Assembly (NCBI GenBank): GCA_018818165.1
Contig: JAHISP010000084.1
Coordinates: 124,001-188,000 of the forward strand
Length of the DNA: 64,000 bases
Reading direction: 5' to 3'
Source of the DNA: Bacteroidota bacterium
GTDB lineage: Bacteria > Bacteroidota > Ignavibacteria > Ignavibacteriales > Melioribacteraceae
Made by a program: the position numbers and the translations under genes. The notes below the pieces were generated by a model, which was not told where the DNA came from, ran no database searches, and was given only the letters and a program-made list of their open reading frames with translations. Positions 20,966-23,140 of the stretch are shown here, in pieces (position 1 is the stretch's first letter; every line of letters starts with the position of its first letter).

Positions 20966-21394
20966 CTATCTCTTAAAAATCCAAACCCACTTTTCAGAAT
21001 CTGGTTCATAAACTCTTACACGGTCCAAGCCATCTGGTTCATATCTTGCCCAGACTCTATATAATTTCCCATTTTCACCTTTATTTTTCAAAGTAAAATT
21101 CATTATAAGTTTATTATCACTTTCAGTATAAGTTGCTTTTTTAATTATAACATCTGCACCTAAACGAGTAGCATGTTGAGCTTTAAAACCCACATATGAA
21201 CCATCACCACCACCTTGCTCAACTGGTTTCTTTCTATAAAGATTGGCAGTCATTCCAATTTCATGAACTCTAACTAATGTTATATCCTTAACTTGATCGG
21301 CAAATGAAACTGAAAAAAGTTTAAAGCCAAATATTACTGCAATTACAACAACAAAAACGCTTATTGCAATTAATAATAATTGTTTAGTTCCCAT
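20966..21394 (-). CDS. Membrane-anchored hypothetical protein next to the sigma/FecR-like gene
   Basis: The 142-residue protein has one N-terminal membrane helix (LLIAISVFVVVIAVIFGF, about 6-25) and a periplasmic or exposed beta-rich domain with RVHEIGMTANLYRKKPVEQG, GADVIIKKATYTESDN and YRVWARYEPDGLDRVRVYEP. The short positively charged start and hydrophobic helix resemble a bitopic or pilin-like anchor, but no prepilin cleavage motif is visible. It lies 42 bases downstream of the sigma/FecR-like gene in the same direction, so the two may form one operon. Not recognised. Confidence 0.72.
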   Translation of the reverse strand: MGTKQLLLIAISVFVVVIAVIFGFKLFSVSFADQVKDITLVRVHEIGMTANLYRKKPVEQGGGDGSYVGFKAQHATRLGADVIIKKATYTESDNKLIMNFTLKNKGENGKLYRVWARYEPDGLDRVRVYEPDSEKWVWIFKR

Positions 21395-21436: not shown

Positions 21437-23140
21437 CTAATCATCACTTCTCATTAGTAAATCACTAATAATAAACTTTAGTAAATCATGTTTTGTTTTT
21501 TCTGATAATGATTCTGTTTTATCAAATTCTTTAACTAAATCAAATAAAAGAATTTGGTCAAGCTTTTTAAGAATTAATTTTATTTTTGCCGAATCTGAGA
21601 TAGAAAGTAAATGCCATAATGTAAGTGCATCTCTTCCTCGTGCATTATTAATGATATAACGCAATGAACTTTCATCAGTTGGAATCTTTGAAAGTTGATT
21701 AATGGCAATTATAAATTCCTCGGAAGCCGATATATTGTAAGGCAAAACTAAGGAGTACGAGTTATCATATTTTATATTGTAGTTATTTACACAGAAAATT
21801 GGATGATTGTATTTTTTCATTGTTAGTTTTAACCACCCTTTATTCATAACCAAATAAAATCCTGAAGCTGCATTTAGCGATAAAGAAAACATTGATTTTT
21901 TTGTGGATATTTCGGAATTATCAAACATTATCTTGTAATTATTGCCATCTTGTTCATATTCCTCTGTTGATTCAAATGCGGAATTAAATTTAATTGCTCC
22001 AGATTTTAACTCAAAAATATTTTCGGAACTTGTAACTTTACTAAGCAATAAATCAGAATTCTCTAGTATTTTCAATGACGCTTTTTTATCACAAAGTATT
22101 TCCGTTGTTCTTGAAGATGCAGTTGTTATTTTATCACCTTCTTTAAGTTCGTTTGTTTTTGCATTTTTACCATTTAGGATAACCAATGCAATTTCATCCG
22201 AAATCTTCCATGATTCTGGAAGATTTGAAATGAAAAAATACGCAGCTGATAAAACAAAAATTATTACAAAAAATCCAATAATTTTGATAAGCGTCTTTTT
22301 ACTAAATGTTTTTTGCTTATCATATTTATAATTGATTTTTTCTTTTTTAGGCTTTTTTATTGCTCCCAAATCTTGAGAATTTTTGTCAATCACATTTCTC
22401 TTGGAATCTTCAATAAAAATAAAATCGCGAAGATTCTCTATTATTTTTTGATCTGGAATAAGATGCCTAAGTAAATCTTGCATAATTTCAATAGAACAAG
22501 CTTCATAATTTGAAACCAGCTTTATAAGATTATCATCTATTTCCAACGTTTCTTCACTTAGTGTAGTTTTTAAATATAAATTTATTTTACTCCATTGTTC
22601 GTCATTAAATTTGGTATAAATTTCTGATGGAAATTTTCTAATTAGCTTTTGTCTAGTGTTATTTAACGTTTCTAATATTTCATTTAATTCTTTCTCTTTG
22701 TACAGCCTCGAAACAAAATCGATATTTAGCCCAACTTGATCAACCAGAACCACACAAATTCTTTCAAAAGTGTTTAATTTAAATATTTCTCTTTCAATTG
22801 GTAAAATTGGGATATTCAGTTCACTGCTTAAATTGTTTATCAAATCATCATTAAGTAATTCAATGTTGTTTTTTGATAAAAAATTAACACATTTTAGAAT
22901 AACTGTTCTTTCCAAGGAATTAATGAACCCATTTAAGTCCTCTATTTTTCCAAGTCCAAACCACATTTCGGATAAAACATCTGATGATATATTAACAGCC
23001 TGTTCTTTTATTGGAATTAATTCAAAAGTTAATGAAAATATTTTGTGAAGATAAATAGTAGCTAAGTTTATATATGAATTATTCCTGCCTCTTTTAGCTT
23101 CCTGTAGTAAAAGTGAATCGTATTTTGAATTTCTACTCAT
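21437..23140 (-). CDS. Membrane protein with ECF-sigma-like N-terminus and FecR-like domain
   Basis: The 567-residue protein starts like an ECF sigma factor. Residues 7-90 follow the region-2 pattern (SLLLQEAKRGRNNSYINLA, EQAVNISSDVLSEMWFGLGK) and residues 112-170 the region-4 spacing (FKLNTFERICVVLVDQVGL ... NNTRQKLIRKF). A basic linker and one membrane helix (about 284-304) follow. Next comes a FecR-like beta domain (about 311-440: ALVILNGKNAKTNELKEGDK, TEILCDKKASLKILENSDL, IFELKSGAIKF) and a helical tail. Sigma and FecR anti-sigma proteins are normally separate; here both halves look fused in one chain. The sigma part is degenerate, so it may no longer bind promoters. This is inferred from pattern, not from an alignment. 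Confidence 0.7.
   Translation of the reverse strand: MSRNSKYDSLLLQEAKRGRNNSYINLATIYLHKIFSLTFELIPIKEQAVNISSDVLSEMWFGLGKIEDLNGFINSLERTVILKCVNFLSKNNIELLNDDLINNLSSELNIPILPIEREIFKLNTFERICVVLVDQVGLNIDFVSRLYKEKELNEILETLNNTRQKLIRKFPSEIYTKFNDEQWSKINLYLKTTLSEETLEIDDNLIKLVSNYEACSIEIMQDLLRHLIPDQKIIENLRDFIFIEDSKRNVIDKNSQDLGAIKKPKKEKINYKYDKQKTFSKKTLIKIIGFFVIIFVLSAAYFFISNLPESWKISDEIALVILNGKNAKTNELKEGDKITTASSRTTEILCDKKASLKILENSDLLLSKVTSSENIFELKSGAIKFNSAFESTEEYEQDGNNYKIMFDNSEISTKKSMFSLSLNAASGFYLVMNKGWLKLTMKKYNHPIFCVNNYNIKYDNSYSLVLPYNISASEEFIIAINQLSKIPTDESSLRYIINNARGRDALTLWHLLSISDSAKIKLILKKLDQILLFDLVKEFDKTESLSEKTKHDLLKFIISDLLMRSDD

Follow-up and report, generated by a model that had tools for sequence, protein, structure and literature searches.

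A single-chain ECF-sigma/anti-sigma fusion of Ignavibacteriales with replaced sigma contact residues and a linked pilin-like gene

Within the window, i.e. the whole 64,000-nucleotide stretch of DNA analysed here, we identified a gene in which an ECF-sigma/anti-sigma pair is joined in one chain, and we propose, with a probability of roughly 55%, that its sigma half acts as a tethered protein-binding module and that its outer domain is tied to a pilin-like protein encoded beside it. According to this proposal, the sigma half would no longer be a promoter-recognising sigma factor; its fold would stay tethered under the membrane, where it may serve protein binding, while the FecR-like outer domain would sense or handle the linked pilin-like protein. 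The cassette might thus monitor or assist a type IV pilus-like filament, with no direct switching of genes. Sequence and model together support the homology of both halves to split operons, the single membrane helix, the replacement of contact residues, continuing purifying selection and the linkage to a pilin-like gene. The features concerned are the following:

21437..23140, (-) strand: fused sigma/anti-sigma-like gene, open frame with an ATG start, 567 aa
22625..23125, (-) strand: ECF-sigma fold, aa 6-172, regions 2 and 4 (SigW 5wuq, Z 15.9)
22385..22534, (-) strand: aa 203-252, probable remnant of a cytoplasmic anti-sigma domain that lacks the HxxxCxxC zinc motif
22226..22282, (-) strand: single membrane helix, aa 287-305, after a Lys-rich linker (hydropathy; predicted helix 281-305)
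21728..22141, (-) strand: FecR-type periplasmic domain, aa 334-471 (4m0h, Z 15.6; PupR 6ovk, Z 15.5)
21449..21721, (-) strand: C-terminal helical region, aa 474-564 (predicted helices)
20966..21394, (-) strand: pilin-like gene, 142 aa, M-G start, no leader, membrane helix aa 6-24

The pilin-like gene begins 42 bases past the end of the fused gene. The nearest genes shown at this locus encode a thioesterase, an Omp85-type protein and an HDOD protein, and no TonB-type receptor gene was seen among them.

The identity of both domains, ECF-sigma and FecR-type, is near certain. No usable sigma match emerged when the window protein itself was scanned against Pfam and NCBIfam (none of the Pfam sigma models was listed for it up to E 10), and the Pfam FecR model (PF04773) scored 12.7 bits, below its cut-off of 24. 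Two profiles built solely from separate sigma and anti-sigma relatives matched the protein with 87 bits (aa 1-173) and 131 bits (aa 179-533), respectively, and a PDB profile search, in which a profile of nine fused proteins was the query, supported the ECF-sigma fold with an E value of 1.2e-18. Among nine fused proteins Sigma70_r2 was found in four and FecR in six (E up to 1). Both Sigma70_r2 and Sigma70_r4_2 were matched by 15 of 16 split sigma genes, and their partners carried zf-HC2 (13/14) and FecR (8/14). An AlphaFold2 model of the window protein, calculated with no templates, had pLDDT values of about 90-97 over the greater part of each domain, and the cytoplasmic stretch that joins the two lay mostly below 60; split homologs were included in the underlying alignment, so that the model depends partly on the homology claim. 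With VIA-align, aa 6-172 were superimposed over 148 residues on SigW bound to RsiW (5wuq; Z 15.9), and aa 334-471 over 128 residues on the anti-sigma factor BDI_1681 (4m0h; Z 15.6) and on PupR (6ovk; Z 15.5). The protein has sigma2 and sigma4 domains without sigma3, as is typical of ECF sigma factors (sigma-70 group IV), and its FecR-type periplasmic domain follows one membrane helix, so that the chain as a whole has the layout of an IutY-type hybrid. The HxxxCxxC motif of zf-HC2 is absent; the probable remnant of this domain (aa 203-252) was assigned from the split anti-sigma profile, which matches from aa 179, and from the motif count, in a stretch of low model confidence.

The sequence-only reading had proposed a fusion of a sigma-like and a FecR-like domain in one 567-aa chain, and the split-only profiles, AlphaFold2 and VIA-align all agree with it. 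The basic linker and single membrane helix that it described were likewise recovered (a Lys-rich stretch, then aa 287-305). The separate-gene relatives, the apparently repeated fusion, the precedent of IutY and the membership of the small protein in a leaderless pilin-like family came in addition to that reading. An N-terminal fold unrelated to sigma factors, which it had named as grounds for abandoning the idea, was not what we found, and its description of this part as degenerate holds: characteristic residues of regions 2.2, 2.4 and 4.2 are replaced. For the FecR assignment the fold stood, but the PF04773 score did not reach the cut-off. Taken alone, the lack of a Pfam sigma match could be read as a sign of helices that merely resemble those of a sigma factor, or of a fused frame produced by an assembly error. 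We regard this as scarcely credible, and it is already contradicted by the agreement of profiles, fold and split homologs and by 27 open fused frames. The fused frame is genuine: it is open in 27 distinct fused proteins, including that of the window, and a sequencing error is therefore excluded.

What sets the sigma half apart is the replacement of residues at three columns (the region 2.2 Gln, the region 2.4 Asn and the first Arg of region 4.2), which we take, from general knowledge of ECF sigma factors, to contact RNA polymerase or promoter DNA. The comparison comprised 18 ECFs from the outgroup, 12 further ECFs encoded in the window's genome, 26 split sigmas and 10 fused proteins of the group that contains the window protein (F1); many outgroup rows are close to each other, and the 12 same-genome ECFs constitute the more independent control. 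Of the three residues, the region 2.2 Gln remains in 18/18 outgroup, 10/12 same-genome, 3/26 split and 0/10 F1 proteins, and the region 2.4 Asn in 18/18, 11/12, 5/26 and 0/10, while the region 4.2 Arg is retained by 18/18 outgroup proteins and 9/12 same-genome ECFs and by none of the 26 split or 10 F1 proteins. In the window protein the three positions are occupied by Ser, Leu and Asn, respectively. Mean net charge, with the groups listed in the same order, is +3.9, +5.0, +1.5 and +0.6 for the region 2.4 stretch and +3.5, +3.2, +0.2 and -0.7 for that of region 4.2. At these two DNA-binding stretches the window protein itself still has net charges of +1 and +2; its case therefore rests more on the residue changes than on charge, and the charge argument is stronger for the family. 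Both kinds of change are already present in split forms.

A loss of sigma function is, on these grounds, likely. The sequence-only reading had left two possibilities, a sigma domain released by proteolysis and a sigma-derived sensor that no longer works as a sigma factor, and the residue evidence favours the latter; in this family the sigma fold is probably reused and not active.

The sigma part is under purifying selection and is not decaying. Its dN/dS was 0.02-0.16 in closely related fused pairs, most of which have a high dS, and 0.05 in the safest of them (G033/G105). In most close fused pairs no other part is as well conserved, and by identity this holds for every pair compared; the window protein and its nearest relative are 82% identical over the sigma part and 52% identical over the periplasmic part. 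A working sigma factor would give similar conservation, and dN/dS therefore indicates constraint, not a new role.

An alternative that we consider less likely is that the fused protein is a working sigma factor of the IutY kind: a signal would lead to periplasmic and intramembrane cleavage, and the freed sigma of roughly 20 kDa, diverged towards an unusual promoter, would control the operon or the pilus genes. The layout is that of IutY, in which Prc and RseP set the sigma free (PMC5411451); the modelled sigma fold is intact, and close relatives conserve it. Several observations count against the view that the sigma is reused: a site-2 protease gene is present in the genome, as IutY-like release would need, the purifying selection is equally expected for a working sigma, and the window protein retains the +1 and +2 charges given above. 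However, at the positions of polymerase and promoter contact, residues retained by nearly all other ECFs are replaced family-wide, and positive charge is reduced at the DNA-binding stretches.

Another use of the sigma fold would be that of a PhyR-like decoy, which binds another anti-sigma factor and so frees a true sigma factor. One fused member matches the PhyR sigma-like Pfam model (E 0.0014), the modelled domain fits anti-sigma-bound sigma (Z 15.9) better than polymerase-bound sigma, and the window's genome has 16 Sigma70_r2 proteins over the cut-off (the window protein not among them). Against this, the fused protein carries its own anti-sigma-derived half, and nothing was found that ties it specifically to another sigma/anti-sigma pair; we consider a decoy improbable.

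In a search of 39 genomes the homologue was fused in some and present as two neighbouring genes in others. The split form in Ignavibacteriales consists of overlapping genes, the sigma gene followed by that of a zf-HC2/TM/FecR anti-sigma factor. Among 44 unique split pairs, 27 have frames that overlap by four bases; the named loci were retrieved with a split-sigma alignment and are mostly split relatives. In the tree, the 27 distinct fused proteins comprise a long group, F1 (10 rows, including the window protein), usually with a pilin-like neighbour, a short group, F4 (15 rows), and two singles. In most F1 loci the architecture recurs together with the neighbour, a combination for which the sequence-only reading had suggested a search in other Ignavibacteria. 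Among 395 sampled genomes of the phylum, the full-length matches to the fused form that were listed belonged to Ignavibacteriales only. The tree places fused forms at several positions and requires three changes of state, and about three separate fusions are favoured. A single origin of all fused forms is weakly rejected (AU test of one fused clade, p=0.025), a result softened by the long branches L108, L087, L007 and L078; because several tree rows are long, repeated fusion is favoured short of proof. The HxxxCxxC zinc motif occurs in 17/18 outgroup, 19/26 split, 0/10 F1 and 0/15 F4 proteins, and survives in one of the 27 fused proteins, L108.

Several loci deserve separate mention. The fused protein of L108 (6468-8156, + strand), which keeps HxxxCxxC inside the chain, has a pilin-like gene downstream, and that of L102 (6134-8071, + strand) has about 84 extra N-terminal residues ahead of the sigma part. 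At L075 (G077:C1:3606500-3608054) the fused gene is apparently broken into two open frames of 354 and 186 aa. The window's genome contains a second pair of the family, in split form (L125:1834-3487, - strand, contig C75), with no pilin-like neighbour in the stretch fetched. Several short fused (F4) genes, among L098, L099, L100, L101, L105 and L109, have neighbours in common; at L098 these gave matches to pyruvate dehydrogenase (E1 and E2 domains) and to a pyridine nucleotide-disulphide oxidoreductase.

The small membrane protein which the sequence-only reading had placed 42 bases further on, as a possible partner, is indeed linked to the fused gene and is pilin-like, the genomic context being strong evidence and the fold moderate. 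It is homologous to 'MG' proteins arranged in short arrays, with genes for a type IV pilus ATPase and for PilC/GspF as neighbours; at L092 the arrays adjoin genes matching T2SSF (E 4e-28) and T2SSE (E 1e-99), and at L093 adjoin homologs of these two genes. Example loci of the family are L092:7181-8751, L093:3173-4702, L091:7717-9185 and window 20966-21394. The structure model of the neighbour (mean pLDDT 70.9) consists of a helix (3-54) followed by five strands. A Foldseek search with it gave nothing significant; in VIA-align the top-ranked structure was an Xcp pseudopilus chain (Z 5.8 over 103 residues) and the third a P1 pilin (Z 5.1), both matches being suggestive only, and the best match in a PDB profile search was geopilin (E 1.1), where the aligned part lies close to the N-terminus of each protein. 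Two further small ORFs considered for the family were dropped, that of L016 being a cytochrome c and that of L005 not sharing the family pattern.

A pilin-like gene is adjacent in 9 of the 10 F1 loci, with changing gene order, and in 16/26 split loci, a rate biased by the fact that these loci were largely chosen for a nearby pilin. It adjoins 0/18 outgroup operons and 1/15 F4 loci, and the F4 proteins, mostly without such a neighbour, count against the reused-sigma reading. Adjacency of pilin and T2SSF was found in 70/71 genomes of a hand-picked list, mostly as shared-contig hits, and is thus frequent, not an unbiased rate. From this gene order we infer a link between the fused protein and the pilin-like protein.

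The family is peculiar in its N-terminus. In 65 distinct members the start codon stands directly before Gly (M-G), there is no in-frame ATG and one TTG upstream, and an in-frame stop usually lies within seven codons of the start; a class III leader is therefore absent from these members, with no room for it upstream. The family was detected in 140/164 genomes of the order (E 0.001) and T2SSF in 142/164. A prepilin peptidase was found over the Pfam cut-off in 8/164 genomes and at E 0.01 in 11/164, by a scan which was positive in 12/14 control genomes and could miss a diverged peptidase. The window's genome is one of the eight, its peptidase being clustered with a frame that resembles a classical prepilin with its leader. 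Two assembly clusters were seen in this genome (L233 and L234, on contigs C61 and C73): that of C61 contains GspF/GspE-like genes with no prepilin peptidase listed there, and that of C73 the peptidase and the frame reading as a classical prepilin.

A review counts prepilin peptidase among the universally conserved parts of type IV pilus machines (PMC4471445), and the genome paper on Melioribacter roseus reported pilT, pilQ, pilB and pilC, and no pilA or pilD (PMC3534657). The pilin-like family is a candidate for the missing pilA, and through it one could test whether a type IV pilus functions in the absence of prepilin peptidase. No description of leaderless pilins was found in a literature search whose coverage left most subscription papers outside. 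We advance only tentatively, at clearly less than even odds, the broader idea that in Ignavibacteriales an ECF-sigma/anti-sigma pair may have become a membrane module without a sigma role, which would monitor, or help to assemble, a dedicated pilin of a type IV pilus whose pilins would be leaderless and for which prepilin peptidase would be unneeded. A large family lacking the usual contact residues and yet under selection would show a transcription switch turning into something else, and suggests that an old switch of this kind may have been reused for another task at the cell envelope.

Comparison with known systems starts from the neighbour, which resembles type IV pilins and pseudopilins in the long N-terminal helix and the beta strands predicted by its model and in having homologs beside T2SSE and T2SSF genes; unlike type IV pilins, its family lacks a class III leader, and in most genomes of the order no prepilin peptidase is recognisable. 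PhyR of the general stress response is a soluble response regulator whose sigma fold serves protein binding and not as a sigma factor. In the window protein, by contrast, the sigma fold is fused to a membrane anti-sigma-like part, and the likeness considered here is that of the sigma fold. Split operons of an ECF sigma and a zf-HC2/TM/FecR protein are direct homologs of both halves, but encode two proteins; those outside the order retain the contact residues of the sigma and lack a pilin-like neighbour. A sigma fused to a membrane-bound anti-sigma part is known from ECF48, ECF52, ECF53 and ECF36 (PMC8999054), whose periplasmic parts differ from that of the window fusion; ECF48/52/53, reported from Actinobacteria, have a zinc finger, whereas the zinc motif is present in 1/27 Ignavibacteriales fusions. 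The closest layout is that of IutY of Pseudomonas putida (ECF243), a sigma/anti-sigma hybrid with an N-terminal ECF sigma, one membrane helix and a periplasmic FecR-type part in a single chain (PMC5411451). In IutY the sigma is functional and the partner is a TonB-type receptor, whereas the window fusion has substitutions at the sigma contact residues and a linked pilin-like gene. The architecture alone is therefore already known (IutY; ECF48/52/53; ECF36); what is new is that the contact residues are replaced, that fusion apparently occurred repeatedly and that the partner is pilin-like.
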